Part shown: piece after piece, positions 1 to 33,340 of the stretch
Layout: each line of letters opens with the position of its first letter
How positions within the stretch are numbered: position 1 is the first letter of the stretch
Assembly (NCBI RefSeq): GCF_006704265.1
Contig: NZ_VIKA01000024.1
Coordinates: 1-33,340 of the forward strand
DNA: 33,340 nucleotides
Origin: Elioraea sp. Yellowstone
GTDB taxonomy: Bacteria > Pseudomonadota > Alphaproteobacteria > Acetobacterales > Acetobacteraceae
Direction of reading: 5' to 3'
Position numbers and translations under genes: made by a program
Notes under the pieces: model-generated
What the model was told of the DNA's origin: nothing
What the model saw: the letters and a program-made list of their open reading frames with translations, nothing else
Database searches by the model: none

Positions 1-729
1 GGCGTCACCGTCAGCGTGCCCGGCACGAAGGTGATCGCGTAGTTGCCGCTGGTCAGGCCCGAGGGCGTGATCGCGTAGCTGCCGACCGGGCTCGCCGGCG
101 CCGCCGGTGTGGCGAAGGTCAGCGTGCCGCCCAGCACGCCCGGCCCCTCGCCCAGCACGAAGCCGGCATAGGTCGCGCTGAAGGCCGGATTCGCCGCGCC
201 GTAAGTGCGCGTCGCGTCGTTCGCCGTCACGGTCAAGGGCGCCGGCGTCACCGTCAGCGTGCCCGGCACGAAGGTGATCGCGTAGTTGCCGCTGGTCAGG
301 CCCGAGGGCGTGATCGCGTAGCTGCCGACCGGGCTCGCCGGGGTCGCCGGTGTGGCGAAGGTCAGCGTGCCGCCCAGCACGCCCGGCCCCTCGCCCAACA
401 CGAAGCCGGCATAAGTCGCGCTGAAGGCCGGATTCGCCGCGCCGTAAGCGCGCGTCGCGTCGTTCGCCGTCACGGTCAAGGGCGCCGGCGTCACCGTCAG
501 CGTGCCCGGCACGAAGGTGATCGCGTAGTTGCCGCTGGTCAGGCCCGAGGGCGTGATCGCATAGCTGCCGACCGGGCTCGCCGGGGTCGCCGGTGTAGCG
601 AAGGTCAGCGTGCCGCCGAGCACGCCCGGCCCCTCGCCCAGCACGAAGCCGGCATAGGTCGCGCTGAAGGCTGGGTTCGCCGCGCCGTAAGTGCGCGTCG
701 CGTCGTTCGCCGTCACGGTCAAGGGCGCC
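1..729 (-). repeat. Three near-identical 243-bp tandem repeats encoding 81-residue MBG (YGX-type) domains
   Basis: The plus strand shows the start of a unit (ggcgtcaccgtcagcgtg) at 1, 244, 487 and 730, an exact period of 243 bp. The units 1-243, 244-486 and 487-729 differ at only a handful of bases. Each codes on the minus strand for an 81-residue module containing AYGAANPAF or TYGAANPAF, GTLTFATPATPASPVGSYA and GTLTVTPA, the usual pattern of MBG_2/YGX domains in bacterial adhesins. A much more diverged unit (VYGTAVAPGA ... DGTLTVTPA) lies at about 730-975 and caps the array on its N-terminal side. The window starts exactly on a unit boundary, so the true copy number is unknown. Confidence 0.93.
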
Positions 730-3713
730 GGCGTCACCGTCAGCGTGCCGTCCACGAGCACGAGGGCATAGCGCTGGGCCGCGCCGCGCGCCGTGAGTGC
801 GGCGACCGGCGAGGTCACATAGGTGCCGACAGCCGCGCTGTCGGGTGCGCCCGTGCTGGTGGAGGTCGTGCCGCCCGTCAGCACTGTCGCCAGCGGGCCG
901 TCCTTCGGGCGCAGCGCGGATGCATCGATGCTGGCTCCCGGCGCGACCGCCGTGCCGTAGACCTTCGCGAGCGTCTGGCCGGTGACCACCAGCACCGGCT
1001 GTTCGCCGTAGACGATGCGGTTGCCGCCCAGCACGTCGAGCGTGACCACCTGGCCGGGGACGTCGGCGCGCGCCGGATCGCCGTAGTCGAACGGTCGGCC
1101 ATAGAGATCGAACTGCGGCGTGCCCGGCTCCGTGCCGAGCATGCCGGCGAAGGTGTCGAGGAACACCAGCCAGCGGCCGTTCGGCGCGGCGAGCGCCCCG
1201 GCGCCGGCCTGGTTGTCGAAGCCGCGCCCGGCCGCGATCGTCAGCGCATCGCCCGTGCCGGTGGCGGTCACGGTCGCCCCGGGCGCGAGCGTGACGCGCT
1301 CCTCCGACACCAGCGCAACCTGCGCCGCGGTCACCGGCGCACGCAGGGTGATCGTGCCCGTGCCGCGCGTGTCCACGCGCAGACCGACCGGGGAGGTGTA
1401 GCTGCTCGCGGTCGTGCCGGTGCCCGGACCCGGCGCCGAGGCCTCCAGCATGAAGTCGCTGCCGGGACCCAGGTTGAAGAGCGGCGCGACGCCGGCGCTG
1501 ATCGCACCCGCCACCCGGACCGATCCGCCGTTGCCGACGGCGGCATCGCCGGCCCGCACCACCCCGTTCCAGAACTGCTGCGGCGCGCGCATCGTCAGGT
1601 CGGCGCCGTTCAGCGCGAACACCCGACCCGGGCTCGCGCCGTCGAGGACGCGGATGCGGCGGCTCGCCTCCATGGTGAGCGATCCGCCCGCCCCCGCCAC
1701 CACCTCGACGAAGGCGTTGCTCCCCGTCCCGCCGATGACGTCGATGGACGGCGCGCGCAGGGTGATGGCGCCGGTCTCGCTGCGCACCCGCGCCCATGAG
1801 GCGCCGGCATTGCCGCGCACCTCGATCGCCGTGCCGGCAACGATGTCGAGCGGCCCGCTGTCGGTCTGCACGCGCACGTTGCGCGTGTCGGCCGAGACGA
1901 GACGCTGCAGGCGCACGGTGCCCGCGGTCGCCTCGAGCCTGAGCGAACCGGAGGTGGTGGTGATCGCGATGTTGCGGTCGTTGCCGGCGTTGGAGGCGAT
2001 CAGGTTGCCCGTGCGTGCCTGCAGGCCGATATCGCCCGTGCCCGAGGCGATCACGTTGTGGTTGACGATCAGGTTCCGGCCCGTGTCGATCCGGAGGTCG
2101 CCGCTGCCCGAACTCGTCAGCGGGGCGGCGATGGTGGTGTCGGTGGCGGCGATGCCGGTGAAGCTGCCCGCACCGGAGGTCGTGATCGCCTGGTTGATCA
2201 CCAGGTTGTTGTCGGCGATCAAGGTGAGGCTGCCCGCCCCGCTCCAGCTGATGCCGGCATTCACGGTGATGTTGCCGAGTTGCGGTCCGGCGACGTTGGT
2301 CGTGATCGTCACGTCGCTGCCGAGATCGAGCACCGACTGGATCACGTCGCGATCCACCACCCAGTCGCCCGGACCGGCGGGCGGATCGTTCACTCCCGCA
2401 CCGACCCCGGCACCGGTGGTCTGGATCCGCACGTTGCGCGGATCGAGCAGCCACGTGCCGCCCGCGCCCGGCGTGACGCTGGCCGAGGGTGCGACCCCCA
2501 GATCACCCTTGGCCGAGGTCTCGATGAAGCCGCCGGCGAGCAGGCCGTCGGCCGCGATGGCACCCGCGACCCAGGTGGCCTGATCCGCCCAGAGGATCAC
2601 GCTGCCGCCCGCCCCTTCGGTCGCGCGCGCCTCGATCCGCGCGCCGGCCTCGAGCGTCGTCGTCTCGGCCCGGCGCAGCGCGCCCTGTCCCTGGCGATCG
2701 CCGCCGACCCGCACCGTCCCGCCGGCGCTGCGGCCATTCGCGACGACCTGCGCGCCGGAGGCCACGCGGACATCCTGGCCGGTCACGGTCACCGATCCGC
2801 CACGGGTCGCGCCGGACGCGTCGAGCGTGCCCGCGACCCGCACCGTGCCCTGGCCGCGGCCGACGAGCTCGATCGTGCCGCCCGCCCCCTCGGCCGAGGC
2901 GGCGCGGATCACGCCGGAGGTGTTGATGACGTTGGCGAGCAGGCCTGACGCGGTGCCGGCAGTGAGCAGCACGCGTCCGCCGCCCGCATCGATCAGCCCC
3001 GTGTTGGCGACGGCCGCGTCGGGACGGCCGGCATCCCCCTCGACCGCGATCCGCACCACGCCGTCGCCGGCGAGATCGATCGTCGTCGTCTCGCCGGAGG
3101 CGAGCGCGACCGTGCCGCGGCGGGCGACGATGGTGCCGCTGTTGGCGACCCGGCCGCCGACCAGGGCGGCGAGGCCCGCCTCGCGCACGGTGATGCTGCC
3201 CTGGTTCTCGACACGGGCGCCGGCGGCCTCCGCGCCGCGCAGCTCCAGCCGGCCTTCGGCCATGAAGCGGTTCGCATCGGCGGCACGGCTGGTCGCGACC
3301 AGACCGCCGACATCGACCCGCGCCGTTCCGGTGAAGACCACCCCGTGCGTGTTCTGGATGATGACGGTGCCGGGGGCGGTGATCTGCCCCGCGATGGTGC
3401 TTTCCCGCCCCGAATGCACGCGGTTGAGCGTCGCCGCGTGGGCCCCGGGCTGGTCGAAGGCGACGCGATGATCGCGCCCGACATCGAAGCTCTGCCAGTC
3501 GATCACTGCCCGCGGCGTGGTCTGGCGGATCCGCGTCTCGGCGGCGGTGGCGGAGATGGTGGCGGCGCCCTGGGCGACGCTGCCTCCCTGCGGGGCCTGG
3601 GCCTGGGCGGGCTGGGCGAGCAGCGCCGCGGCCGCGGCGCCGGCGAGCAACAGACGACGGGGTGCGGTGGCGGCCGTCTCGATTGCGGTGACACGGGGTT
3701 CAGGGAGTGCCAT
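1..3713 (-). CDS. Large secreted adhesin, filamentous haemagglutinin / two-partner secretion (TpsA) type, C-terminus cut off
   Basis: Reading leftwards from the ATG at 3713, the frame stays open in every stretch I translated and runs off position 1, giving 1237 residues without the C-terminus. Residues 1 to about 39 form a long signal peptide: basic residues (APRR), a hydrophobic LLLAGAAAAALLA core and an AQA cleavage site. Next comes the TPS/haemagglutination-activity domain, seen in motifs such as VIDWQSFDVG, TLNRV, GTVIIQNTHGVVF and GLVATS. A long beta-helix-like part follows, rich in short motifs (for example NNLVINQAITTSGAG). The last part seen is MBG-type (YGX) repeats. Family members are exported across the outer membrane by a TpsB/FhaC partner and act in adhesion or biofilm formation. 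No TpsB gene is in this window. The gene is divergent from a secreted protease gene. No strong Shine-Dalgarno precedes the ATG, but the signal peptide fixes the start well. Confidence 0.9.
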   Translation of the reverse strand, partial: MALPEPRVTAIETAATAPRRLLLAGAAAAALLAQPAQAQAPQGGSVAQGAATISATAAETRIRQTTPRAVIDWQSFDVGRDHRVAFDQPGAHAATLNRVHSGRESTIAGQITAPGTVIIQNTHGVVFTGTARVDVGGLVATSRAADANRFMAEGRLELRGAEAAGARVENQGSITVREAGLAALVGGRVANSGTIVARRGTVALASGETTTIDLAGDGVVRIAVEGDAGRPDAAVANTGLIDAGGGRVLLTAGTASGLLANVINTSGVIRAASAEGAGGTIELVGRGQGTVRVAGTLDASGATRGGSVTVTGQDVRVASGAQVVANGRSAGGTVRVGGDRQGQGALRRAETTTLEAGARIEARATEGAGGSVILWADQATWVAGAIAADGLLAGGFIETSAKGDLGVAPSASVTPGAGGTWLLDPRNVRIQTTGAGVGAGVNDPPAGPGDWVVDRDVIQSVLDLGSDVTITTNVAGPQLGNITVNAGISWSGAGSLTLIADNNLVINQAITTSGAGSFTGIAATDTTIAAPLTSSGSGDLRIDTGRNLIVNHNVIASGTGDIGLQARTGNLIASNAGNDRNIAITTTSGSLRLEATAGTVRLQRLVSADTRNVRVQTDSGPLDIVAGTAIEVRGNAGASWARVRSETGAITLRAPSIDVIGGTGSNAFVEVVAGAGGSLTMEASRRIRVLDGASPGRVFALNGADLTMRAPQQFWNGVVRAGDAAVGNGGSVRVAGAISAGVAPLFNLGPGSDFMLEASAPGPGTGTTASSYTSPVGLRVDTRGTGTITLRAPVTAAQVALVSEERVTLAPGATVTATGTGDALTIAAGRGFDNQAGAGALAAPNGRWLVFLDTFAGMLGTEPGTPQFDLYGRPFDYGDPARADVPGQVVTLDVLGGNRIVYGEQPVLVVTGQTLAKVYGTAVAPGASIDASALRPKDGPLATVLTGGTTSTSTGAPDSAAVGTYVTSPVAALTARGAAQRYALVLVDGTLTVTPAPLTVTANDATRTYGAANPAFSATYAGFVLGEGPGVLGGTLTFATPATPASPVGSYAITPSGLTSGNYAITFVPGTLTVTPAPLTVTANDATRAYGAANPAFSATYAGFVLGEGPGVLGGTLTFATPATPASPVGSYAITPSGLTSGNYAITFVPGTLTVTPAPLTVTANDATRTYGAANPAFSATYAGFVLGEGPGVLGGTLTFATPAAPASPVGSYAITPSGLTSGNYAITFVPGTLTVT

Positions 3714-7841: not shown

Positions 7842-8837
7842 TTGGACATCCGAGGCAAGCGCTTCGTGGTCATCGGCGGCGCCGGCCTGATCGGCTCGCA
7901 CACGGTCGATCTGCTGACGCGCGAGGACGTCGGCGCGATCGTCGTCTACGACAACTTCGTGCGCGGCCGGCACGAGAACCTCGCCGCCGCGCTCAAGGAT
8001 CCGCGCGTGCGGATCTTCGAGGCGGGCGGCGACATCACGCAGACCGATATCCTCGAGGCCGCGCTCGAGGGCGCGGACGGCGTGTTCCATTTCGCCGCCC
8101 TCTGGCTGCTGCAGTGCCACGAGTTCCCGCGCGCCGCCTTCGAGGTGAACGTGAAGGGCATGTTCAACGTCCTCGACGCCTGCGTGCGCAGGGGCGTGAA
8201 GCGGCTGGTCTGGTCGTCCTCGGCCTCGGTCTACGGCGATGCGGTCGAGGAGCCGATGACCGAGGACCATCCCTTCAACAACCGCAACTTCTACGGCGCG
8301 ACCAAGATCTGCGGCGAGGCGATGGCGCGCGCCTACCACCACCGCTACGGCCTGCCCCAGGTGGGCCTGCGCTACATGAACGTCTACGGGCCGCGCCAGG
8401 ACTACCAGGGCGCCTACATCGCCGTGATCATGAAGATGCTCGATGCGATCGACCGCGGCGAGGGACCGACCATCTTCGGCGACGGCTCCGAGGCCTTCGA
8501 CTTCGTCGCGGTGGAGGACTGCGCGGTGGCCAATCTCTGCGCCATGCGCGCCGAGGTGGCGGACGGGTTCTACAATGTCGGCACCGGCCGGCGCACCTCG
8601 CTCAGGGAGATCGCCGAACTCCTGCTGCGGCTGACCGGATCGAACCAGGAGATCCGCTACGCGCCGCGCAGCCAGGCGACGCTGGTGCGCAACCGCATCG
8701 GCTCGCCGGAGCGGGCCAGGCGCGAGCTCGGCTTCGAGGCGCGCATCGGCCTCGAGGAGGGGCTCGCCCGGCTGATCGCGTGGCGGCGCGCGCACAAGGC
8801 CGAGGTCGAGGCGCGCCGCGCGCGCATCGGGACGTGA
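7842..8837 (+). CDS. NAD-dependent nucleotide-sugar epimerase/dehydratase (extended SDR)
   Basis: The product is 331 residues. The TTG start at 7842 is supported by gaggagac about 5 bases upstream and by the Rossmann motif falling at the usual distance, GGAGLIG at 12-18. The catalytic triad is typical of extended SDRs: serine in SSSASVYG at about 125-129, then Tyr151 and Lys155 in YGATK. RYMNVYGPRQ and DFVAVEDCA further on are family signatures for binding the nucleotide sugar. The closest general match is UDP-glucose/UDP-GlcNAc 4-epimerase-like enzymes, but dehydratases and uronate decarboxylases share these motifs. Placed just before a DegT aminotransferase, it may prepare a keto sugar or set the C4 configuration. 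The substrate is not resolved. Confidence 0.85.
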   Translation: MDIRGKRFVVIGGAGLIGSHTVDLLTREDVGAIVVYDNFVRGRHENLAAALKDPRVRIFEAGGDITQTDILEAALEGADGVFHFAALWLLQCHEFPRAAFEVNVKGMFNVLDACVRRGVKRLVWSSSASVYGDAVEEPMTEDHPFNNRNFYGATKICGEAMARAYHHRYGLPQVGLRYMNVYGPRQDYQGAYIAVIMKMLDAIDRGEGPTIFGDGSEAFDFVAVEDCAVANLCAMRAEVADGFYNVGTGRRTSLREIAELLLRLTGSNQEIRYAPRSQATLVRNRIGSPERARRELGFEARIGLEEGLARLIAWRRAHKAEVEARRARIGT

Positions 8838-8850
8838 CGGAGCCGCACCG

Positions 8851-10014
8851 ATGAACGATGCGCCGCCGCGCAAGGTGCCGATCGCGCTCCCCGCGATGGG
8901 CGAGGAGGAGTTGCAGGCGGTGCGCCGGCCGATCGCCTCCGGCTGGCTCACCCAGGGCCCCGAGGTCGCCGCCTTCGAGCGTGCCTTCGCCGCGCGCCAC
9001 CAGGTGCCGCACGCGCTCGCCACCACGAGCTGCACCACCGCGCTGCATCTCGCCCTCGCCGCCCTCGGCATCGGCCCGGGCGACGAGGTGATCGTCCCCT
9101 CCTTCACCTGGATCGCCACCGCCAACGCGGTGCTCTACTGCGGCGCGACCCCCGTGCTGTGCGACGTCGATCCGGCGACCTGCAACATCGACCCGACCGC
9201 CGCCGCGGCGAAGGTGACGGCGCGCACGAGGGCGGTGATCCCGGTGCACCTGTTCGGGCTCTGCGCCGACATCGACGCGCTGCGCGCCGCGCTGCCGGCG
9301 CATGTGCGCATCGTCGAGGACGCGGCCTGCGCCGCCGGCGCCTCCTACAAGGGCCGGCCGGCCGGCGGGCTCGGCGACCTCGCCTGCTTCTCCTTCCATC
9401 CGCGCAAGTCCATCACCACCGGCGAGGGCGGGATGCTCACCACCACCGACCCGGCACTCGCCGCGCGCGCCGAGGTGCTGCGCAACCACGGCGCCTCGAT
9501 CCCGGAGGAGCAGCGCCACGCCGGCCCGCAGCCCTGGCTGCTGCCGGACTTCGACGAGCTCGGCTTCAACTACCGCATGACCGACCTTCAGGCCGCGATC
9601 GGGCTGGCGCAGCTCGCCAAGCTCGACGCCTTCGTGGACGAGCGCGACGCCTGGGCGCGCTACTACCGCGACGCGCTCGCCGACATCCCCTGGCTGCGCC
9701 ATCCCGAGCGGCCGAACCACGGCCGGCATGCCTGGCAGGCCTACGTGATGCGCGTCGATCCGGCCTCGGCGCCGATGTCGCGCAACGAGATCATGGCGCG
9801 CCTGCACGCGCGCGGCATCGCCACCCGCCCCGGCACGCACGCGATCCACATGCTGGGCTATTATGCCGGCCGCTTCGGCTTCGCCCCCGACGACCTGCCC
9901 GGCGCGCACGACTGCGCGCGGAACACGATGGCGATCCCGCTGCACAACCGCATGACGGCGGAGGACTACGCCTACGTCGTCGCGGAGCTGCGCGCGATCG
10001 CCGGCATGGCATGA
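8851..10014 (+). CDS. PLP-dependent nucleotide-sugar aminotransferase (DegT/DnrJ/EryC1/StrS family)
   Basis: The product is 387 residues, normal for the family. The PLP-binding lysine is Lys186 in SFHPRKSITTGEGG, with Asp157 in IVEDAAC contacting the cofactor ring. Other landmarks are TTSCTTALHLAL near 58-69, PSFTWIATANAV at 83-94 and FNYRMTDLQAAIG. It transfers an amino group, normally from glutamate, to a keto sugar nucleotide in the cytoplasm. The lysine context (HPRKSITTGEGG) is that of the general perosamine-synthase-like branch. It differs from the context I associate with WbpE (a TKPLG-like context), so it may not be the missing 3-aminotransferase of the WbpA/WbpB/WbpD pathway encoded 9 kb away. 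It starts 13 bases after the epimerase and overlaps the next gene by ATGA. Confidence 0.9.
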   Translation: MNDAPPRKVPIALPAMGEEELQAVRRPIASGWLTQGPEVAAFERAFAARHQVPHALATTSCTTALHLALAALGIGPGDEVIVPSFTWIATANAVLYCGATPVLCDVDPATCNIDPTAAAAKVTARTRAVIPVHLFGLCADIDALRAALPAHVRIVEDAACAAGASYKGRPAGGLGDLACFSFHPRKSITTGEGGMLTTTDPALAARAEVLRNHGASIPEEQRHAGPQPWLLPDFDELGFNYRMTDLQAAIGLAQLAKLDAFVDERDAWARYYRDALADIPWLRHPERPNHGRHAWQAYVMRVDPASAPMSRNEIMARLHARGIATRPGTHAIHMLGYYAGRFGFAPDDLPGAHDCARNTMAIPLHNRMTAEDYAYVVAELRAIAGMA

Positions 10015-11021
10015 CGGCTCCGCCCGGCTGGCTCGGCGATCTGCTCGGCGGCCCCTTGCCCGCGGAGGGCGGCAGCATGGTGGCGCATGGCCAGCCGCTC
10101 ACCCTGATCGGCGGCATCCCGCGCGCGGCCGAACTCCACTCCGCCGCGCAGGCGCAGACGCGCGAGACCTTCGGCTTCAAGTGGGCGCGGCGCGACACCT
10201 ACGAGGGCGGGGTCGCGGCCCATGCCGCGCGCTGGCTGGCCGAGAAGTACGGCGACCTCGCCGCCGCGGCCTGGCTCGACGAGCACGGCCCTGCGCCGCT
10301 CCTGCTGGATGCCGGCTGCGGCGCCGCGCTCTCGGCGCTCGCGCTGTTCGCGCCGGTGCTGCACCGCGTCCGCTATCTCGGCGTCGATGTCTCGACCGCG
10401 GTGGAGGTCGCGGCACGGCGCTTCGCCGAGCGCGGGCTGAGCGCGGCCTTCCTCCAGGCCGACCTGATGCGGCTTCCCCTGCCGCCGGAGAGCGTCGACC
10501 TGATCTTCTCCGAGGGCGTGCTGCACCACACCGACGACACGCGGGCGGCACTCGCCGCGCTGACGCGCCACCTCAAGCCCGGCGGGCGGATCCTGTTCTA
10601 CGTCTATCGCAGGAAGGGGCCGATCCGCGAGTTCACCGACGACCACGTGCGCGCGAAGCTGCAGGCGATGACGCCCGAGGAGGCCTGGGCGGCGCTCATG
10701 CCCCTGACCCGGCTCGGCCGCGCGCTCGGCGAACTCGATGTCGAGATCGAGGTGCCCGAGACGATCGACCTCCTCGAGATCCCGGCGGGGCGGATCAGCC
10801 TGCAGCGCTTCTTCTACTGGCATGTCTGCAAGGCGTTCCATCGTCCGGAGATGTCGCTCGAGGAGCTGAACCACATCAACTTCGACTGGTTCGCGCCAAG
10901 GAACGCGCATCGCCACACGCCGGAGGAGGTGCGCGGCTGGTGCGCCGGGCTCGGGCTCGCGATCGAGCACGAGCGCATCGAGGAGGCCGGCATCACGATC
11001 CGCGCGAAGAAGGTGGGCTGA
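10011..11021 (+). CDS. Class I SAM-dependent methyltransferase
   Basis: The product is 336 residues. The ATG at 10011 overlaps the aminotransferase stop as ATGA, which fixes the start by translational coupling. About 95 N-terminal residues of unclear function, including FGFKW and WLAEKYGD, precede the Rossmann core. Motif I is LLLDAGCG near residues 97-104, then YLGVDVS, and the post-motif region FSEGVLHHTDDT is typical of small-molecule methyltransferases. After LKPGGRILFYVYRRKGP a further 130 residues, rich in charged and aromatic residues, may form an acceptor-binding cap. In this cluster it probably O- or N-methylates a sugar or a glycan end, but no specific substrate can be assigned. It ends 5 bases before the second AsnB-like gene. 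Confidence 0.85.
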   Translation: MTAPPGWLGDLLGGPLPAEGGSMVAHGQPLTLIGGIPRAAELHSAAQAQTRETFGFKWARRDTYEGGVAAHAARWLAEKYGDLAAAAWLDEHGPAPLLLDAGCGAALSALALFAPVLHRVRYLGVDVSTAVEVAARRFAERGLSAAFLQADLMRLPLPPESVDLIFSEGVLHHTDDTRAALAALTRHLKPGGRILFYVYRRKGPIREFTDDHVRAKLQAMTPEEAWAALMPLTRLGRALGELDVEIEVPETIDLLEIPAGRISLQRFFYWHVCKAFHRPEMSLEELNHINFDWFAPRNAHRHTPEEVRGWCAGLGLAIEHERIEEAGITIRAKKVG

Positions 11022-11026
11022 GCGCG

Positions 11027-12919
11027 ATGTGCGGCATCGCCGGCATCCTCCAGCTTGATGGCGCCCCGGCCTCGGCCGCGGCGGTGCAGCGCATGACGGA
11101 TGCGATCGCCCATCGCGGCCCCGACGGCGAGGGCGTGTGGGTGGAGGGCGCGGTCGGCCTCGGCCACCGGCGGCTTGCGATCATCGATCTTTCCGAGGCC
11201 GGGCGGCAGCCGATGGCCACGGCCGACGGGCGCTTCGTCGTCAGCTACAATGGCGAGATCTACAACTTCCGCGAACTGCGCACCGAGTTGCAGGCGCTGG
11301 GGCACCGCTTCCGCACCCGCACCGACACCGAGGTGGTGCTGGCGGCCTTCGCCGAATGGGGCCTCGCCGCCCTGCCCCGCTTCAACGGCATGTTCGCCCT
11401 CGCCCTCTACGACCGCGCCGAGCGGCGGCTCACCCTCGCGCGCGACCGTTTCGGGATCAAGCCGCTCTACTGGACGGCCGAGGCCGGGCGCGTGCTGTTC
11501 GGCTCGGAGGTGAAGGCGATCCTCGCCGCTCCCGGCGCCTCCGCCGCGCTCGACGCGGAGGCGCTGGTCGAGTACCTGACCTTCCAGAACTTCTTCACCG
11601 ACCGCACGCTGTTCCGCGGCATCCGCCTGCTGCCGCCGGCGACCGCGCTCATCCTGACGCCCGGACGGCCGGTCGAGCGCACGACCTGGTGGGACTTCGA
11701 CTTCCGCGAGGCCGAGGCGGGCGACGACGCCGCGCTCGCCGAGGCGTGCGACCGGCTGTTCCGCCAGGCGGTGAGCCGGCAGCTCGTCGCCGACGTGCCC
11801 GTGGGCGCCTATCTCTCGGGCGGGATCGACTCGGGCGCGATCACCGCCGTCGCCGCGCCGCAGATCCCCGGGATGCGCAGCTTCACCGTGGGCTTCGACC
11901 TGAACTCCGCCTCGGGCCTGGAACTCGGCTTCGACGAGCGCGCCAAGGCCGAATACATGTCCTATCTGTTCGGCACCGAGCACTACCAGATGGTGCTGAA
12001 GGCCGGCGACATGGAGCGGGCGATGCCGGCACTCGCCTGGCACCTCGAGGAGCCGCGGGTCGGCCAGAGCTACCCGAACTACTACGCCGCGAAGCTCGCC
12101 TCGCGCTTCGGCAAGGTGGTGCTGGCCGGCACCGGCGGCGACGAGGTCTTCGGCGGCTATCCGTGGCGCTACTATCGTGCCGTGGTGAACGACGATTTCG
12201 GCCACTACGTCGAGAAGTACTACGCGTTCTGGCAGCGCCTGCTGGCCGAGGAGGAGCTTCCGCGCGTGCTCGCGCCGATCTGGCCGGAGGTGCGCCACGT
12301 GGCGCCACGCGAGATCTTCGCCGGCGTGTTCCGCCGCCACGCCGAGGCCATGACGCGGCCCGAGGACTACGTGAACCACTCGCTCTACTTCGAGGCGAAG
12401 ACCTTCCTGCACGGCCTTCTGGTGGTGGAGGACAAGCTCGCGATGGCGCACGGGCTGGAGGCGCGCGTGCCGTTCCTGGACAACGACCTGGTCGAGTTCG
12501 GCATGCGCCTGCCGGTGCGCTGCAAGCTCGGCAGCCTGGCCGAGGTGGTGCGGATCGACGAGAACACGCCGGGCAGCAAGCGCGCGGCCTTCTTCGAGAG
12601 GACGCGGGACGGCAAGAAGCTCCTGCGCGAGGTGCTGCAGCGCTACGTGCCGGAGCAGGTGAGCCAGGCGGTGAAGCAGGGCTTCTCGGCGCCGGATGCG
12701 AGCTGGTTCCGCGGCGAGAGCATCGCCTATGTCCGGCGCGTGCTGCATGACCGCAAGGCGGCGATCTACGACGTGCTCGACCGTGCGGCCGTGCTGGCGC
12801 TGGTGGACGAGCATCTGGAGGGGCGGCGCAACCGGCGGCTTCTGGTGTGGTCGCTCCTCTATCTCGAGGCGTTCATGAGGGCGTTTCTGGCCAATGCGAG
12901 CCCGAGGAAAGTCGCGTGA
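11027..12919 (+). CDS. asnB: AsnB-like glutamine-dependent amidotransferase (asparagine synthase family), copy 2
   Basis: The product is 630 residues and starts MCGIAG, with Cys2 as the glutaminase nucleophile. Visible motifs are HRGPDGEG, YNGEIYNFRELR, RTDTEVVL, RDRFGIKPLYW, the ATP-binding SGGIDSG at 264-270 and GTGGDEVFGGYPW. It is closer to the canonical AsnB pattern than copy 1: IYN and RFGIKPLYW here against SYN and RVGIKPVYY in copy 1. So copy 2 could be the true asparagine synthetase and copy 1 the specialised one, or both may modify sugars. The C-terminal half contains LEARVPFLDN and KQGFSAPD, normal for the family. Its stop overlaps the next start as GTGA, although base composition changes sharply exactly at this junction. 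Confidence 0.9.
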   Translation: MCGIAGILQLDGAPASAAAVQRMTDAIAHRGPDGEGVWVEGAVGLGHRRLAIIDLSEAGRQPMATADGRFVVSYNGEIYNFRELRTELQALGHRFRTRTDTEVVLAAFAEWGLAALPRFNGMFALALYDRAERRLTLARDRFGIKPLYWTAEAGRVLFGSEVKAILAAPGASAALDAEALVEYLTFQNFFTDRTLFRGIRLLPPATALILTPGRPVERTTWWDFDFREAEAGDDAALAEACDRLFRQAVSRQLVADVPVGAYLSGGIDSGAITAVAAPQIPGMRSFTVGFDLNSASGLELGFDERAKAEYMSYLFGTEHYQMVLKAGDMERAMPALAWHLEEPRVGQSYPNYYAAKLASRFGKVVLAGTGGDEVFGGYPWRYYRAVVNDDFGHYVEKYYAFWQRLLAEEELPRVLAPIWPEVRHVAPREIFAGVFRRHAEAMTRPEDYVNHSLYFEAKTFLHGLLVVEDKLAMAHGLEARVPFLDNDLVEFGMRLPVRCKLGSLAEVVRIDENTPGSKRAAFFERTRDGKKLLREVLQRYVPEQVSQAVKQGFSAPDASWFRGESIAYVRRVLHDRKAAIYDVLDRAAVLALVDEHLEGRRNRRLLVWSLLYLEAFMRAFLANASPRKVA

Positions 12920-13530
12920 CGCTTGACGCGTTCGTCGAACTGCTTAAGGCGGCTGCGCTTGCGCGAGAGGCACAGCTCCGCGAGCAGTTTCAACGCAGCC
13001 TGCCGTTCGCTGATGCGATATTCGACCGCTGGGAACGAGCCCGACGTCTCGGTTTCGGCGAAGGCAGTTCAATCTACGATTCCGCATGCGTGTTCGGTGA
13101 CGTTACGGTGGGACGTCATGTCTGGATCGGCCCGTGGGTTATGCTCGACGGGTCTGGCGGCCTCACCATTGGCGATCATGTCTCACTCTCGGCGGGCGTC
13201 CAGATCTACACCCATGACACCGTACACTGGGCGGTGTCGGGTGGCGTTGTCCCGCCGCGTCGAGCCTCCGTCGCGGTCGGTGACCGCGTTTATGTCGGTA
13301 GCCAATCGGTCATTGCGCAAGGCGTCACGATCGGACGCAAATGCGTGATCTCGGCCAACAGTTTGGTCATCGACGACGTGCCGGAAGCCACAATCGTCGG
13401 AGGCGTCCCAGCGGTGCCGATCGGGCGCGTTGAAGGTGAAGGGGCGGAGGTGCGGCTAGTATTCACACGCCGCAGGATGCAGCGGACTGCCGGTTTGCCA
13501 ACGAAGGCCATTGGCCGAGAGCGCCGATGA
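12916..13530 (+). CDS. Hexapeptide-repeat acyltransferase (left-handed beta-helix, probable O-acetyltransferase)
   Basis: The product is 204 residues from GTG 12916, chosen because it overlaps the previous stop (GTGA) and has gaggaaag just upstream. A longer frame exists but would lie wholly inside the AsnB-like gene. After a helical N-terminus (about 1-45, rich in A, R, E and Q) come hexapeptide turns such as VTVGRHVWIGPWVML, LTIGDHVSLSAGVQI, VAVGDRVYVGSQSVI and VTIGRKCVISANS. His100 in YTHDTVHW sits where the catalytic histidine of the maltose/galactoside acetyltransferase group is found. It ends GGVPAVPIG, also typical. It likely acetylates a hydroxyl of the polysaccharide repeat unit. Codon use is clearly less GC-rich than in the upstream genes. 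Confidence 0.85.
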   Translation: MTLDAFVELLKAAALAREAQLREQFQRSLPFADAIFDRWERARRLGFGEGSSIYDSACVFGDVTVGRHVWIGPWVMLDGSGGLTIGDHVSLSAGVQIYTHDTVHWAVSGGVVPPRRASVAVGDRVYVGSQSVIAQGVTIGRKCVISANSLVIDDVPEATIVGGVPAVPIGRVEGEGAEVRLVFTRRRMQRTAGLPTKAIGRERR

Positions 13531-13790
13531 TAGAGGCGCGTCTGTTACTCGCCCGCAAGCTCTCGGAGGCCACCGAGACGCCATGGGACCCCGATCGCCC
13601 GACGCGTGTCGAGCTGGTCGAGTGCGGCGCCGGGGTCGGCCTGCGCTTCTTCGCCATGAAACGGACCGGCGAATGGGTTATGGTCCACGAGGAACCTTCC
13701 GTCCCCCTGGCGACCGAGGCGGACGCGGACGACCTGCTCGCGCGCGGCCTGTCGATCTTCCTGATGAATCACCCGACCTGGCCGGCGTGA
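13527..13790 (+). CDS. Small protein of unknown function (87 residues)
   Basis: I do not recognise this gene. The ATG at 13527 overlaps the acyltransferase stop (ATGA), which argues that it is really translated and coupled. The product is acidic-to-neutral and soluble-looking. It has an N-terminal helix (IEARLLLARKLSEA), a central beta-type stretch (RVELVECGAGVGLRFFAMKR, then GEWVMVHEE) and an ADADDLLARGLSIFLMNHP end. No signal peptide, membrane segment or cysteine motif is seen; it has one cysteine. Possibilities are a small regulatory or accessory partner of the acyltransferase, or a remnant fixed by coupling. Its base composition is closer to the high-GC flanks than that of its two neighbours. 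Confidence 0.55.
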   Translation: MIEARLLLARKLSEATETPWDPDRPTRVELVECGAGVGLRFFAMKRTGEWVMVHEEPSVPLATEADADDLLARGLSIFLMNHPTWPA

Positions 13791-13822
13791 GACCACGCCA
13801 CAAGCACCACGGAGAGGCGCCG

Positions 13823-13918
13823 ATGCTCGCGCGCAAGATCAGGCTGGTGGGGGAGGTTCGACTGGCGTTCAGTCACCGGACCTCGGCGGCCGCGTGGACC
13901 GCGCAGCAGCGAGAGTGA
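13823..13918 (+). CDS. Possible 31-residue small ORF in the gap before the GT-C-like gene
   Basis: The 229-base gap 13791-14019 contains no recognisable gene. The only candidate with a ribosome site is an ATG at 13823, preceded by ggagagg, that would encode a basic 31-residue peptide beginning MLARKIRLVGEV. A second tiny frame starts at 13920 (39 codons, ending 14039) but overlaps the next gene and has no clear ribosome site. Neither shows recognisable features. The region may simply be the leader of the GT-C-like gene. Confidence 0.2.
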   Translation: MLARKIRLVGEVRLAFSHRTSAAAWTAQQRE

Positions 13919-14019
13919 GATGGTACGACGTCTTGCAGCATTGACGCCGAGACCCATTGATGCGCGCAACCTGATACGACACACAGTCCCTCGTCAGGGC
14001 AAACGATGGACTGCGACGC

Positions 14020-15588
14020 ATGCTCCCCATGGTCGTTGATCCGGCGCTCTTGGTTGCTGTCACCCTCGCGACACGCATACCATTCCTCCTGATGCCGTCG
14101 TCCGACAAGGCGACGCAGCTCTGGATCATCGAGACATTCGCAGCCAACCGGCGCATCGCCCCGCTGCGGTTCCAGAACAGTCTGCGGCAGGGCATGCTGG
14201 CCTATCCGCCCCTGCCGCACTTCTTTCTCGCGTTCCTACCACGCCATCTCCGCCTTGCCGCCGGTGCCGCAGTCAACCTCCTCGCGGACGTGATTCATGT
14301 GCTGATCGTCTACGTCGTGCTGCGGCTCCTGCTCGCAGGTCATGACACCCCGGGCGACGTCTCGCCCACGCTCGCCTTCGCCCTCTTGTTCGCGACACTG
14401 CCGATCCTTCACCCCGTCAACGCGCGCCTTGCCGGGATCGGGGCGCGGACGATCGGTCCCCTGCTCTTTACGCTCTACGCCATGGCGCTGTTCCAGGCGC
14501 AGCACGCGAGTTCGCCCCTCTTCCATGTTGTCTGCATCGTCACTGGCATCGCGATCGTGCTCGCCTCGCAGTTCGCGCTTCAGGTTCTTGTCGGGATCAG
14601 CCTGTTCCTGTCGGCGTGGATGTCATCGGTCGTACCAGGGGTCATCGTCGCTCTGTCGATCGGGATCGGCGCGCTCATTCCTGGCCTCAACATCGGCCCT
14701 CAGCTTCGGTGCAAGATGCAGCACTATCGCTGGTACGCCTCGGCCCGGAATCTTCACATCGACATGCGCAACAGCCTCGCCCAGATCCGCAAGATCCTTG
14801 GAGGCGAACCTCGTACCGCGGGACCCAGGCTGATCGTCTACCTGGTTTCCTCGACAACGCCGGCCGCCGTCGTACTGGGAACTGGCACTCTGGTCCTGGC
14901 GGCTGTCCGGGCATGGCCCTGGCCGGATGGCGTTGATGCTAATCCCTTCATCACGTTCGCAGTGGGCATCGTGATCGGTGCATCGCTGCTCTGCCTCTTG
15001 ACGATCCGAGGGCCGCTCAGGATCTTCGGTGAGGCGGAGCGCTATGTCGAGTACGCCGCGCCGTTCGCGGTTGTCGTCGTCGCCAGCGCATATGTCGCCG
15101 AAGGTGCAGACGTCGGCGCCGTGCTCCTGCTCGTCATTCTGAACTGCTCGGTCATCGCCGGTCAGTGGACCATTTCCGTGCTGCCGCAACTGCGCAGCGC
15201 CATCGGCTTCGAGCCGACCGACGATCTCAAGGCACTGGTCGCGTTCCTGGATCGACGCCCTGGCCGTCGCATCGTGACTAGTCCGATCTTCCTCGCCTCG
15301 TCGTTGGCGCTGCTGTCACGCGGCGAGCACGAGTTCCTGCATGTCCTCGTCGCGGATGCCGATGGCCGCTTCTCGCACTGGCACGAGGACCTGATCGGCT
15401 ATCCTCATCTGCGCGGGCGAGCCAGCCATTTTGTCGAACGCTACCGCGCTGATACGATGGTGCTGGAGCGCAGCAGCTTCGAGGCGATCCGCCGCCTGGA
15501 CGTGGAAGCTGATCTCGACATCAGGCCGATCGCCTACCAGAATCATGGCTTCCTCGTGTTCGAGCTCGATGTTCCCGCGCGTGACTGA
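14020..15588 (+). CDS. Polytopic membrane protein, GT-C-like glycosyltransferase or polysaccharide assembly protein
   Basis: The product is 522 residues. Many hydrophobic segments fill residues 1 to about 390, for example PALLVAVTLATRIPFLLM, AAVNLLADVIHVLIVYVVL and GVIVALSIGIGALIPGL. A soluble C-terminal part of about 130 residues follows. The N-terminus fits GT-C enzymes using polyprenyl-linked donors: a short first helix, an acidic residue in a loop (Asp29 in PSSDKATQLW), then YPPLPHFFLAFLP at 62-74, which resembles the YPPL/H segment of dolichol- or undecaprenyl-dependent transferases. Against a Wzy polymerase are that loop and the large soluble tail. Its place directly before a flippase gene suggests a role on the periplasmic side of glycan assembly. 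I cannot name a family with certainty. The end overlaps the flippase start. Confidence 0.65.
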   Translation: MLPMVVDPALLVAVTLATRIPFLLMPSSDKATQLWIIETFAANRRIAPLRFQNSLRQGMLAYPPLPHFFLAFLPRHLRLAAGAAVNLLADVIHVLIVYVVLRLLLAGHDTPGDVSPTLAFALLFATLPILHPVNARLAGIGARTIGPLLFTLYAMALFQAQHASSPLFHVVCIVTGIAIVLASQFALQVLVGISLFLSAWMSSVVPGVIVALSIGIGALIPGLNIGPQLRCKMQHYRWYASARNLHIDMRNSLAQIRKILGGEPRTAGPRLIVYLVSSTTPAAVVLGTGTLVLAAVRAWPWPDGVDANPFITFAVGIVIGASLLCLLTIRGPLRIFGEAERYVEYAAPFAVVVVASAYVAEGADVGAVLLLVILNCSVIAGQWTISVLPQLRSAIGFEPTDDLKALVAFLDRRPGRRIVTSPIFLASSLALLSRGEHEFLHVLVADADGRFSHWHEDLIGYPHLRGRASHFVERYRADTMVLERSSFEAIRRLDVEADLDIRPIAYQNHGFLVFELDVPARD

Positions 15589-17032
15589 ACTCCGCAGGCT
15601 CGTCGCCGAGATGGCGATCTATGCGGTCGGTCGTGCGGCGAGCGCGCTGATTCCGTTCCTGCTGGTCCCATTCCTCACGCGGACCTATACACCGGAGGAG
15701 TTCGGCACCCTCGAAGTTGTGCTGGTGTCGGCCGCTATTGTGGGAACCATCATCTCGAGCGGTCTCCCGGGTGCCTACATGTTCTTCGTTCGTGCGCCAT
15801 CCTATAGAGGAGCGACGCACGTGCTGTTGGGCGCGTGCGCCACTTGGTATGTCCTCTGGTCGGTGATTGTGCTCGGCCTGCTCGCCCTGTGTCTGCCGTT
15901 CGTATTCCACCTCCTGACAGCCAGATTGTTAAGTGGCCTGGAAGTCGGTCTGTTCTTCGGCGTCGCCGTCACGCAGCAGATTCTGGTCTTTGTCACAGCC
16001 GTTCTGCGCATGGACAACCGGGCCTGGGCGGTTGTCCTCCTGTCGGTCGGAGGCAGCCTGTGCGCGGCCCTCCTCACCGTCGCCTTCGTTCTTTGGCAAG
16101 GACCGACGATCCAGGCCTATCTGCTGGGCTTCACGATCGGATTCGGCGCTGCGGCGATCGTGGGATGCGGCGTGATCCGGCCACGCCGCAAGCTTATGCT
16201 GTGGAGCAGTGCCGATCTGGGACGACTTCTCGCCTTCGGCCTGCCTCTCGTGCCAAGCGCCCTGTCCGAGGTCGCCCTCACCATGGCGGATCGTGCCATC
16301 GTCATGAGCCTTCTTGGTGCCCGCGAGCTGGCCGTCTATGCGGTCGCAGCAAGAGTCGCAAGCCTTGTGCAGCTTGCGATCCAGTCGGTCTCGCTGGCTT
16401 TGCCCCCGCTGAAGATGCGGCTTCTGCACGAGTCGGATCGTGAGGCGTCAGGCCGGCTGCTGGGCATCCTCTGGCGGTACGTCTCGATGGTCTTCCTCGC
16501 CGGCGCGGTGCTTGGCGCGATGATCACCCCCCTCCTAGTGAAGTTCTTGGCTCCTCAGGCGTACCGAGGCGCCATGCACGTTGCGCCATATCTCATGCTT
16601 GCTCACGTGTTTTATTCGTTCACAAATTTTATGTCGCTGGGCGCCCTAAAGGCCGAGAAGACCTATCTGTATACGCTGAGCGTGCTCGCCGGGGCCATCC
16701 TGAGTGTCGCCGGATCGCTTGCCCTGGTTCCGCATCTTGGACTGCTTGGCGCGGCCGCGGGAACACTGGCCGGCAGCATCATGACGCCAGCGATCTGCCT
16801 GGCGCTCAGCCAACGGGTGTGGCGCCTTGATCTGCCGCTCAATCGTGTCATCGCAATGTCCGGGGTCGCCCTGCTCGCTTGCGCCCTGCTGGCAAGAGCA
16901 GGCGGTGACGGTGTGACCCCTGTGCAGCTGGCCGTCACTGCGGCAGCGATCGGTGTGATGGCGCCTATCGCCGTCAGCCGCGCCGACCTCACGCTGCTCA
17001 GGAGCATGAACCGGTGGGGCTCGCCCACCTGA
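15569..17032 (+). CDS. Wzx-type polysaccharide repeat-unit flippase (MOP superfamily)
   Basis: The product is 487 residues from ATG 15569, overlapping the previous gene by 20 bases. GTG 15581, overlapping by 8, is an equally possible start. About 12 to 14 hydrophobic segments run the full length. The N-terminal signature is AIYAVGRAASALIPFLLVPF followed by RTYTPEEFGTLE, the classic opening of polysaccharide biosynthesis (PST/Wzx) transporters. A repeat of the fold begins near RLLAFGLPLVPSALSEVA, with DRAIVMSLLGARELAVYAVA in the middle. It should flip undecaprenyl-diphosphate-linked oligosaccharide across the inner membrane. It is the only transporter in the cluster, and no ABC export pair is seen. 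This implies a Wzy-dependent route, with the polymerase elsewhere or being the GT-C-like neighbour. Confidence 0.88.
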   Translation: MFPRVTELRRLVAEMAIYAVGRAASALIPFLLVPFLTRTYTPEEFGTLEVVLVSAAIVGTIISSGLPGAYMFFVRAPSYRGATHVLLGACATWYVLWSVIVLGLLALCLPFVFHLLTARLLSGLEVGLFFGVAVTQQILVFVTAVLRMDNRAWAVVLLSVGGSLCAALLTVAFVLWQGPTIQAYLLGFTIGFGAAAIVGCGVIRPRRKLMLWSSADLGRLLAFGLPLVPSALSEVALTMADRAIVMSLLGARELAVYAVAARVASLVQLAIQSVSLALPPLKMRLLHESDREASGRLLGILWRYVSMVFLAGAVLGAMITPLLVKFLAPQAYRGAMHVAPYLMLAHVFYSFTNFMSLGALKAEKTYLYTLSVLAGAILSVAGSLALVPHLGLLGAAAGTLAGSIMTPAICLALSQRVWRLDLPLNRVIAMSGVALLACALLARAGGDGVTPVQLAVTAAAIGVMAPIAVSRADLTLLRSMNRWGSPT

Positions 17033-17043
17033 AGCGGAAAGGC

Positions 17044-17061
17044 GCCGACATTGGTGTCGGC
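17044..17061. terminator. Hairpin between two convergent genes, possible bidirectional terminator
   Basis: gccgaca and tgtcggc form a perfect 7-bp stem around a ttgg loop, in the 36-base gap between the flippase stop (17032) and the stop of the oppositely oriented methyltransferase (17069). There is no T-run on either side, so termination efficiency is doubtful. Its position between converging genes is what supports the call. Confidence 0.4.
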
Positions 17062-17068
17062 CATAGGG

Positions 17069-17818
17069 TCAAGGCGTCCCAGGTCCTGGCTTGCGCGCGA
17101 CCAACCGGAAATGGCTCAGGAGAAAATACGCCGCTACGCGATTGCCCAGCAGGAACCGTCCAAGTCGGCCGAGCCGATTGGGGGACGTCCACTCATACCG
17201 CGCCGGCAGGAACCCAGCGCGCTGCAACAGACGATCCCACAGGCGCGGGTGCTGGTGCTTGTGCCACTCGATCGTCGGGCAGAACGGACTTCTCAGTCCA
17301 AGATCGTTGAAGACATTCGATCGATCGCAGTCGGTAATGATCAGAACCCCACCATCGCGGAGGAGATGCCACGCCTTGCGAAAGATGGCGTGATAGGTCG
17401 CCTGCGCAGCGTCGTCATGAGCGAGGCGAACGCAGGCCTCCTCGTCGAGGTGATTGATCGAGTTCGCCATGACGATGACATCGAACGGCTGTTCGTCCAG
17501 AAAGCCCTGGAAGGCAGCGGGCAACAGCCGTGCTCGTCCGCCCGTATCGATGCACGATTCCATGCGTGCAAAGTGCAAAGCCGCGCCGGAGGTAGCTCCG
17601 TCCGCCTCCGGTTCAAGACAGATCGCTTCCGCACCACGAACCGCCGCATACAGCGTCAGCAGCCCGGTTCCACCACCGACATCGAGGACGCGCTTTCCTT
17701 CCAGATCGACCCCCTCGAACATGAATGAAACATACTGCCTCAGATTGAAGGCATTGGAGTACTGGCCGCACGCCAGAACGCACGTGATGTATCGCGTCAG
17801 CGGATCGGACAAGGCCAT
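17069..17818 (-). CDS. Class I SAM-dependent methyltransferase, inverted within the cassette
   Basis: The product is 249 residues. Motif I is LDVGGGTG at 45-52, followed by the acidic end of beta-2 (AICLEPEAD). FDVIVMANSINHLDEEACV and WHLLRDGGVLIITDCDRSN are the later strands, so the fold is complete. The C-terminal part (WDRLLQRAGFLPARYEWTSP) resembles small-substrate methyltransferases. It is the only minus-strand gene between 3908 and 19108, lying between flippase and glycosyltransferase, so it needs its own promoter. The 57-base gap to the divergent glycosyltransferase start at 17876 is the obvious place for one. A role in methylating or capping the same glycan is plausible, but nothing in the sequence names the substrate. 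Confidence 0.82.
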   Translation of the reverse strand: MALSDPLTRYITCVLACGQYSNAFNLRQYVSFMFEGVDLEGKRVLDVGGGTGLLTLYAAVRGAEAICLEPEADGATSGAALHFARMESCIDTGGRARLLPAAFQGFLDEQPFDVIVMANSINHLDEEACVRLAHDDAAQATYHAIFRKAWHLLRDGGVLIITDCDRSNVFNDLGLRSPFCPTIEWHKHQHPRLWDRLLQRAGFLPARYEWTSPNRLGRLGRFLLGNRVAAYFLLSHFRLVARKPGPGTP

Positions 17819-17846
17819 CTGCGTGTCAACCTTCGGCGTGGTTTGC

Positions 17847-17957
17847 GGTCGCCCCTTGCTGGTATAAGGCTTTTCGTGTCATCGCCTGAATCTACAACCG
17901 TCCCAGAGCCCTTCTGCGACGACAACTCCTTAAGGTCGCCCCTGGCTGGTGCAAGGC
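17847..17957 (+). repeat. Imperfect direct repeat (24 bp, 21 identical) 87 bp apart at the start of a glycosyltransferase gene
   Basis: The 24 bases at 17847-17870 and 17934-17957 both begin ggtcgcccct and end aaggc, with three mismatches. The offset of 87 bp is a multiple of three, so both copies would read RSPLAG in the same frame. The first copy lies across the probable ribosome site (taagg) of the glycosyltransferase; the second encodes part of its N-terminal extension. This could be the trace of a short duplication or of an excision/insertion event. Confidence 0.6.
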
Positions 17958-19108
17958 GAAATATTCTGATCGTCATCGGTAGCCTCGATGTAGGCGGAAC
18001 CGAACGGCACATTCTCCGAACCGTGCCGAGGCTTGCATCGGCCGAGCGTGTGTTCACGGTCTTCACACTTGCCCGCCCCGGCACGCTCGCGGACGAGTTG
18101 CAGTCGCAGGGTGTTCGCGTGATCACTCCGTGGATCGAGACGAGGAGTGGACGCGCCGCTCGTATCATGCTGGCATTCCGGATCCTGGCGAGGTCGCTCC
18201 AACTCCTGCTCTACCTTCTTGCCCAGCGGCCGGACATCGTTCACTGCATCTTGCCTCAAAGCTACTGGCTTGCGGCGCCTCTTGCCATCCTGGCCGGCAT
18301 ACGCGGTCGCATGATGAGCAGACGCAGCCTCAACATCTATCTGGACCACCAGCCGACTGTCATACGTTGGCTCGAGCGGTGGTTGCACCAGCGTATGTCG
18401 GCAATCGTCGGCAACTCCCAGGCCGTGGTCGATCAGCTCATTCGCGAGGAAGGGGCACCGGCAGACCGGACCGTGCTGATCTACAACGGGATCGACACGG
18501 CGGCCTTCTTGCCGACGCGAAGCTCGGCGGACATGCGCCGGAGCCTCGGCGTTGGCGACGGCACGGTTGTTCTGTGCGCGGTTGCAAATCTCATTCCCTA
18601 CAAGGGGCATGCCGATCTGCTTGCTGCCTGCGCCCGCCTTGATCCAACGCTTGATTGGCATCTGCTTGTAGTCGGCAACGATACCTCCGGTATTGCAGTG
18701 GAATTGATAAGGATGGCGCGCGATTTCGGCATCGCCAAGCAGGTCAGCTTCCTCGGGAGTCGTGATGACATAGCGGACATTCTTCATGCTGCCGACATCG
18801 GCGTTCTGGCCTCACACGAAGAAGGTTTGCCCAATGCGATCCTCGAGTACATGGCGGCGGGTCTGCCGGTTGTCGCCACGGCGGTGGGTGGCGTGCCGGA
18901 GCTCGTCATCCCTCATGAGACGGGGCTGCTCGTACCGGCGCGGGACGTTGTTCGGCTTACAGACGCGCTTGGTCGGCTGATCGCCGACCAAGGCCTCCGA
19001 AGCCGCTTCGGGGCAGCAGGGCAAGAACGGGTCCGCAAGACGTTTGCAATCGAACGAACGCTCGAGCAGTACGCACAGGTCTATGACCGTGTGGCGAGCC
19101 GATCGTAG
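17876..19108 (+). CDS. Glycosyltransferase, GT4 family (GT-B fold), second copy in the window
   Basis: The product is 410 residues from GTG 17876, which has taagg 6 bases upstream. An in-frame TTG at 17843 would add 11 residues but lacks a ribosome site. About 30 residues of low-complexity extension precede the conserved core, which begins NILIVIGSLDVGGTERHILR. The donor domain carries NGIDTAAF, FLGSRDDIADILHAADIGVLAS, the E-x7-E motif EEGLPNAILEYMAAGLP near residue 314 and GVPELVIPHETGLLVP. A hydrophobic stretch (LARSLQLLLYLLAQ) near 110-125 probably docks on the membrane. It is the last plus-strand gene of the cassette and lies tail to tail, 27 bases away, with the WbpB-WbpD fusion gene. 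Confidence 0.87.
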   Translation: MSSPESTTVPEPFCDDNSLRSPLAGARRNILIVIGSLDVGGTERHILRTVPRLASAERVFTVFTLARPGTLADELQSQGVRVITPWIETRSGRAARIMLAFRILARSLQLLLYLLAQRPDIVHCILPQSYWLAAPLAILAGIRGRMMSRRSLNIYLDHQPTVIRWLERWLHQRMSAIVGNSQAVVDQLIREEGAPADRTVLIYNGIDTAAFLPTRSSADMRRSLGVGDGTVVLCAVANLIPYKGHADLLAACARLDPTLDWHLLVVGNDTSGIAVELIRMARDFGIAKQVSFLGSRDDIADILHAADIGVLASHEEGLPNAILEYMAAGLPVVATAVGGVPELVIPHETGLLVPARDVVRLTDALGRLIADQGLRSRFGAAGQERVRKTFAIERTLEQYAQVYDRVASRS

Positions 19109-19135
19109 CGACAACTGACAGACTGCCGGCCCGCC

Positions 19136-20713
19136 CTACCCCCCGATCGGCTCCAGCCGTTCCCCGTCCACCAGCCGGTAGCGCTCCCCCGTGCCGGGGC
19201 AGACCAGGTCCTCGCCCAACCGATGCCCCGCCCGGCTCATCCAGCCGATCCGCCGCGCCGGAACGCCGGCCATCAGCGCGTGGTCCGGCACGTCCGTCGT
19301 CACCACCGCGCCGGCGGCGATGAACGCGTAGGCCCCGATCGTATGGCCGCAGACGATGGTCGCATTCGCGCCGATCGTCGCCCCGCGCCGCACCAGCGTC
19401 GGACGGAACTCGGCCTTGCGCGGAATCTCGGCGCGCGGATTGAGGACGTTCGTGAACACACAGGAGGGGCCGCAGAACACCCCGTCCTCGAGCGTCACGC
19501 CCTCGTAGACCGAGACGTTGTTCTGGATCTTCACCCGGCTGCCGACCGTGACCTTGGGGCCGATCACCACGTTCTGGCCGATCTGCGTCTCCTCGCCGAT
19601 GCGCACGCCGGACAGGATGTGGCTGAAGTGCCAGATCCGCGTGCCGCGGCCGATCGTCACCTCGGCATCGACATAGGCGCTCTCGTGGATCATCACATCC
19701 GGATGCGTGCCGACGACGCGCGGTGCCGCGGGCGCGGCCGCGGCCTCCCGGCGCAGGGCGCGCGTCGCCCGGTCCAGCACGGCGAGCACGCGCAGTCCCT
19801 CCCGCCCGTCGGTGCGCGGACTCGCGCCGGTCGTGATGCAGTCGAGGAAGTGCCGGCACTCGGCGCGCAGCGGCTCCTGCTCGACCAGCGGCACCGGTTC
19901 GGCCTCCCCCTTCACCGGTACCGGCAGGTTCTCGCGCCAGGCGACCCTGTGCGGATAGAGCAGAAGCTTGCGCGCCCAGGGCTCGCCGTCGTCGAACACC
20001 GCCATCGCCTCCGAGCCGACGACGACCAGCTTCTGCTCCTTGTAGGGATGCAGCCAGGAGACGAAGACATGCGCGCGCTCGCCGCCGGGAAAGGCGAGAT
20101 GCGTGGTCGTCACGTCCGCGATCGTGCGGTGCAGGTAGCAGCCGCCGACCGCCTCGACCGTGTCCGGCTCGGCGCCGACGAGCGAGAGGATCATCGAGAT
20201 GTCGTGCGGCGCGAACGACCAGAGGATGTCCTCCTCGCGCCGGATGCGCCCGAGATTCAGCCGGTTCGAGTAGAGATACTGCAGCCGGCCGAGCCGGCCC
20301 TCGCGCACCAGGCGCTTCAGCTCCAGGAAGGCCGGGTGATACTGCAGCAGATGCCCGACCATCAGGCGCCGATCCAGCCGCTCGGCGAGCGCGCAGAGCG
20401 AACGCGCCTCCTCCAGCGCCAGCGCGAGGGGCTTCTCGACGAAGACGTGCTTGCCCGCCTCGAGCGCGTGCCTCGCGAGCGGGAAGTGCTGCGCCGCCGG
20501 CGCCGCGATCGCCACCCCGTCAACCGTCCGATCGGCGAGGATCGCGTCGAACCCGCGCGCCGGCACGCCGTACCGCTCGGCCTCGCGCTGCGCTGCGGCG
20601 GCATTCGCATCGCACACGGCCGCGAGCGCGCCGAGCTCGGCGAAGTTGCGCACGAGGTTGCGCCCCCAGGCGCCGCAGCCGACCACCGCCACCGACGCGG
20701 CCATCGCCGTCAT
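19136..20713 (-). CDS. Fusion of nucleotide-sugar 3-dehydrogenase (Gfo/Idh/MocA, WbpB/WlbA-like) and N-acetyltransferase (WbpD/WlbB-like)
   Basis: The product is 525 residues. The ATG at 20713 overlaps the wbpA stop (ATGA). Residues 1-322 form an NAD-dependent oxidoreductase: GCGAWG at 12-17, EKPLAL with Lys94, and the substrate-domain motif [12 protein letters not shown] near 165-176. A short alanine/proline linker (about 323-339) leads to a left-handed beta-helix acetyltransferase (340-525) with [38 protein letters not shown] and [11 protein letters not shown]. In Pseudomonas and Bordetella these are separate proteins: WbpB/WlbA oxidises UDP-GlcNAcA at C3, and WbpD/WlbB acetylates the 3-amino group after WbpE transamination. 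Here both ends of that sequence are in one chain while the aminotransferase is not part of it. Base composition is again very GC-rich. Confidence 0.9.
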
Positions 20714-22077: not shown

Positions 22078-22141
22078 GGGCGGACCCTTGCGGTTCGGCG
22101 TCACGGCGCGGCCTTGCTGCGCGGTTGCGCGGCAAAGATCA

Positions 22142-33279: not shown

Positions 33280-33340
33280 GGGGGGGCCCCCCCCCGGCGC
33301 CCCCCCCCCCCGGGGTGTTTTTAAAAAAAACCCGCCCCCC
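33280..33340. other. Low-quality homopolymer sequence at the right end
   Basis: The last 60 bases are long runs of g, c, t and a (for example a c-run of fourteen and a run of eight a after five t). They break the tilS frame and do not resemble any other part of the window. This is most likely read-end or contig-end error rather than biology. Confidence 0.85.

Follow-up and report, generated by a model that had tools for sequence, protein, structure and literature searches.

In this study, the tandem array at the start of the window, that is, the whole of contig C166 of Elioraea sp. Yellowstone (33,340 bp), was very probably identified as the stalk of a type Vb (TPS) adhesin of the CdrA/Periscope kind, cut at a K=77 branch of the assembly. 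The other half of the gene, tpsA, was found on contig C276 of the same genome (G000; 358 contigs, listed completeness 100%), and the two contigs together give a minimal gene with at least five MBG_2 units, namely a diverged first one, three near-identical middle ones and a diverged terminal one. The units observed in the window were as follows.

1 to 243, minus strand: near-identical unit 1, on the contig edge (MBG_2 at 9-236; Tandem Repeats Finder and Pfam)
244 to 486, minus strand: near-identical unit 2 (MBG_2 at 252-479; Tandem Repeats Finder and Pfam)
487 to 729, minus strand: near-identical unit 3 (MBG_2 at 495-722; Tandem Repeats Finder and Pfam)
738 to 992, minus strand: first, diverged MBG_2 unit (weak match; Pfam and unit alignment)

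Tandem Repeats Finder reported a period of 243 over window 1-749 (3.1 copies, 97% matches, 0 indels, score 1428), by a wide margin the strongest tandem array in the window. The three 243-bp units filling window 1-729 share 96.7-97.9% pairwise DNA identity, with 5 base differences per 243 between units 1 and 2, 7 between units 1 and 3, and 8 between units 2 and 3; these change two, one and one residues, respectively, and the remaining base changes are silent. Since each of the three carries private base changes, the array is no threefold copy of a single sequence. The fourth unit differs from them at 151-152 positions without gaps and reaches about 50% identity once aligned, so that the original prediction of three near-identical units and a strongly diverged fourth holds, with its end at about 992 instead of the proposed 975. 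The MBG_2 assignment was likewise recovered on all four units by Pfam, the diverged unit alone scoring 25.6 bits, narrowly above the cut-off of 25. The window had also been said to begin exactly on a unit boundary, which needs correction: base 1 is in a short linker, 8 bases before the Pfam edge at 9. At 81 aa and the above DNA identity, the units fall within the definition of Periscope Protein repeats (more than 50 residues, at least 80% identity).

Two further features of the array concern the contig edge.

1 to 77, no strand: 77-mer common to the right end of C276 and the window start, a K=77 node with two predecessors
244 to 320, no strand: second copy of the 77-mer, closing the loop that leaves the unit count unfixed

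A DNA search of the contigs of the genome showed that C276 matches the array through its final base, the terminal 77-mer of the contig being identical to window 1-77. When the two contigs, left unjoined, were converted into a K=77 de Bruijn graph, a node with two predecessors fell exactly at window base 1, corresponding to position 28089 of C276, where the last 77-mer of that contig begins. The base preceding it is T on C276 and C at window 243, and this difference makes the branch that sets the contig edge. K = 77 belongs to the defaults of SPAdes. The left edge of the window is thus an assembly edge, a short-read K=77 de Bruijn branch inside the array, in agreement with the assembler stop within a repeat that had been foreseen. 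The truncation of the array at this edge stands as a matter of assembly, yet the rest of tpsA is not simply lost, because the far side of the array, the terminal unit and the C-terminus sit on C276. The 98-bp repeat at the break could be spanned by ordinary reads, and the stop of the assembler there is accounted for in part and not fully explained. When two other contig ends were tried, neither yielded another 77-bp contig overlap: the left end of C276 gave only an internal 90% match, and the right end of the window matched only itself. Window 33280-33340 consists of homopolymer runs, first of G and C and then of T and A, resembling low-quality sequence, and the right end looks like a different sort of edge from the left one, not a repeat edge.

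The coding sequence itself is laid out as follows.

3 to 3713, minus strand: tpsA, 1237 aa in the window, its open 3' end running off the window start (ORF list, Pfam)
2850 to 3596, minus strand: TPS secretion domain, aa 40-288 (PF05860, E 4.3e-33)
2139 to 3659, minus strand: region alignable to EtpA, aa 19-525 (8vba, E 4.4e-65)
28165 down to 27464 of C276, minus strand: continuation of tpsA, joined by the 77-bp overlap

The reading frame is open across all the near-identical units, and C276 extends it through a fifth, terminal MBG_2 unit and then about 124 more residues. The N-terminal part aligns to EtpA, a solved beta-helical TPS adhesin, and TIGR01901 (NCBIfam) matches aa 71-144 with an E of 5e-19. 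The tpsB gene on C276, which carries POTRA_2 and ShlB domains, overlaps the end of tpsA, and two sister species, G002 and G003, share this tpsA-tpsB order. The product is classed as a TpsA by its N-terminal TPS domain (PF05860, TIGR01901) and the adjacent tpsB. The genome also encodes a second TpsA-like protein, at C57:2308-4038, which shares 42% identity with this one along some 575 N-terminal residues. For TpsA itself, neither an adhesion ligand nor a head domain was identified.

The window part of TpsA (1237 aa) is free of cysteine, and the part on C276 has two, as C-x12-C close to the C-terminus. This pair, the only cysteines of TpsA and in pattern a CdrA-type cysteine hook, is invariant in both sister species. 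A Roseobacter homologue, 46% identical in the best segment, likewise contains just two cysteines, spaced as C-x13-C and followed by an E-S-Y-W-like motif resembling that of the Elioraea protein. In HMW1/HxuA a disulfide anchor is located at the C-terminus (PMC5422565), and a cysteine hook keeps CdrA in CdrB (PMC7616799). With a C-terminal pair in an exoprotein otherwise free of cysteine, as in HMW1/HxuA, we infer by analogy that the pair would lock the tail of TpsA in the TpsB pore; unlike in those proteins, the disulfide and the anchoring are predictions from sequence, and the C-terminal ~124 aa were detected in the genus Elioraea alone among the 299 family genomes.

The three-unit AlphaFold2 model is confident (mean pLDDT 97.4, pTM 0.80) and consists of repeating beta-sandwich units. 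Structure comparison placed it closest to tandem Ig-like, cadherin and bacterial adhesin stalk domains, by individually weak matches of middling score (best Foldseek E 1.1e-6; VIA-align Z up to 6.3) that indicate a shared domain arrangement and nothing beyond it. By sequence, no solved MBG_2 structure was found, with weak matches only (E 0.23 or worse). The model of the C-terminal piece, with a pLDDT of 30 from a three-sequence alignment, was disregarded. On the reading as an adhesin stalk, TpsB, encoded just downstream, would export TpsA with the N-terminus first, the TPS domain and beta-helix would form the distal part, and the tandem small beta-sandwich domains of MBG_2 would serve as a rod held at the cell by the cysteine hook. 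The near-identity of the middle units at the DNA level would make unequal recombination possible, by which units could be gained, lost or homogenised, and a changed unit number would change the reach of the adhesin head. An adhesin rod with its reach set by unit number is the best-supported working model.

In the sister species G002 the array is unbroken, with a diverged first unit, one middle unit and a terminal unit, so there is one middle unit, a count that may itself be too low, against at least three in the Yellowstone genome. The middle units of the latter are 75-78% identical in DNA to the middle unit of G002, a level similar to that of the other parts of tpsA and tpsB between the species (75.9-78.9%), and unit 1 comes out slightly low in the unit alignment as it is trimmed by the contig edge. 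Given about 97% identity within the genome and 75-78% to the sister unit, the amplification or homogenisation of the middle units dates from after the divergence of the species, which sustains the recent event originally proposed. First units pair with first units across species, the diverged first unit having 69% DNA identity to the matching units of G002 and G003. In the other MBG_2 arrays compared by the same measure, adjacent units are at most 92% alike, making this array the most homogeneous among those compared. MBG_2 was found in 12 of the 299 family genomes, and in three of the 12 (G000, G003 and G302) the arrays are interrupted by contig ends, of which there are seven. The G003 array is broken at two of them, the ends of C1 and C11, without exact overlap. 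G302, of another genus, has three contig ends within MBG_2 arrays (the start of C15 and the ends of C20 and C22), the last 22 bases of C22 being the first 22 of C15.

How many units the gene holds admits more than one answer. The loop in the graph is made up of two repeats (98 and 111 bp), two unit variants and a return edge, and it leaves the number and order of the middle units unfixed by the assembly. The array could be much longer, with identical copies of the looped unit collapsed or lying on short contigs, which we find plausible without quite expecting it. Besides the cycle itself, the 98-bp repeat left uncrossed hints at ambiguity beyond two copies, those contigs of 366-2931 bp that were sampled appear as N, so that unit contigs could hide among them, and Paraburkholderia acidicola has 29 MBG_2 units in a complete array. 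Yet the contigs demand no extra copies, needing three near-identical units at most; the collapsed repeat with many more units that had been predicted, and extra copies of the looped unit beyond the minimal gene, are possible in view of the loop. The Paraburkholderia array (L049, 11109 onwards), unbroken and with 76-90% identity between most neighbours, is a good test case for length variation.

Somewhat doubtful, in our view, is that the locus has exactly five MBG_2 units, three of them near-identical, in a fixed number, with gene conversion acting without change of length. The two contigs join in one minimal path for which further units are unneeded, and the terminal unit seems drawn towards its neighbours, as gene conversion would give, being 83.5% identical to the middle units of its own array against 79.4% to the terminal unit of G002; but the single middle unit of G002 means that length has changed within the genus. 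That strain mixture or mis-assembly created the near-identical units, in an organism that has fewer, is very improbable: the assembly is in 358 contigs and two short repeats are traversed twice within one contig of the K=77 graph, but private substitutions mark each unit, the frame is open throughout, the listed contamination is 0.01, and other family genomes likewise break within MBG_2 arrays.

With reference to known systems, MBG_2 (PF18676) was defined in the Periscope Protein study, in which CdrA repeats vary among strains of P. aeruginosa (PMC8201768), and a CdrA of 15 repeats measures 71 nm in length (PMC9704523). Like CdrA, the Elioraea TpsA is a TPS adhesin with a tandem MBG_2 stalk of highly similar repeats, a TpsB partner and, judging by the cysteine pattern, a C-terminal hook. 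Unlike CdrA in PAO1, with its 15 units, five are seen here; Psl binding and c-di-GMP control are features of CdrA, the likeness to which was drawn from domain content and the cysteine pattern. LapG cleaves CdrA off the surface (PMC4694147). No LapG (Peptidase_C93, PF06035) was detected in any of the seven genus genomes, while the Caulobacter control scores, and the release mechanism is therefore different from that of CdrA or absent. We tentatively suggest, as something rather less than probable, that unit number changes within populations, gain and loss of MBG_2 units being the sole means by which a hook-anchored TPS adhesin without LapG control tunes its reach. Unlike the Periscope Proteins SasG, Rib and Sgo_0707 (PMC8201768), the Elioraea adhesin varies in unit number, as far as was seen with a single genome for each species, only between species, and it appears to be anchored by a Gram-negative TPS system instead of sortase. 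The near-identical domain repeats of about 240-300 bp in Ilm of Yersinia ruckeri (PMC6868369) are similarly uncountable by short reads, though Ilm has an Ig-like domain and is a different protein.

Next to the adhesin, window 7842-22104 holds a polysaccharide cluster with an epimerase, a DegT aminotransferase, a second AsnB, a hexapeptide transferase, a Wzx-like flippase, a glycosyltransferase and a UDP-sugar dehydrogenase. G003 lacks the cluster at the corresponding position, its first glycosyltransferase being directly followed by SerA. GC drops from about 73% to 61-65% over window 13-19.5 kb, which suggests acquired DNA. A conserved link between adhesin and polysaccharide cluster, as for CdrA and Psl, was considered and rejected, for beside the G003 adhesin only the protease, AsnB1 and a single glycosyltransferase are retained before SerA.

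Adhesin lengths taken from such fragmented assemblies are lower bounds, as the arrays reach contig ends in three of the 12 MBG_2 genomes, and the missing half of an apparently truncated gene can be recovered from elsewhere in its own assembly. Moreover, the two related species with different unit numbers provide a concrete pair for MBG_2 Periscope Proteins. Variation in MBG_2 repeat number is already known from CdrA of Pseudomonas, itself a Periscope Protein, and the Elioraea adhesin represents a further lineage of this kind of protein.
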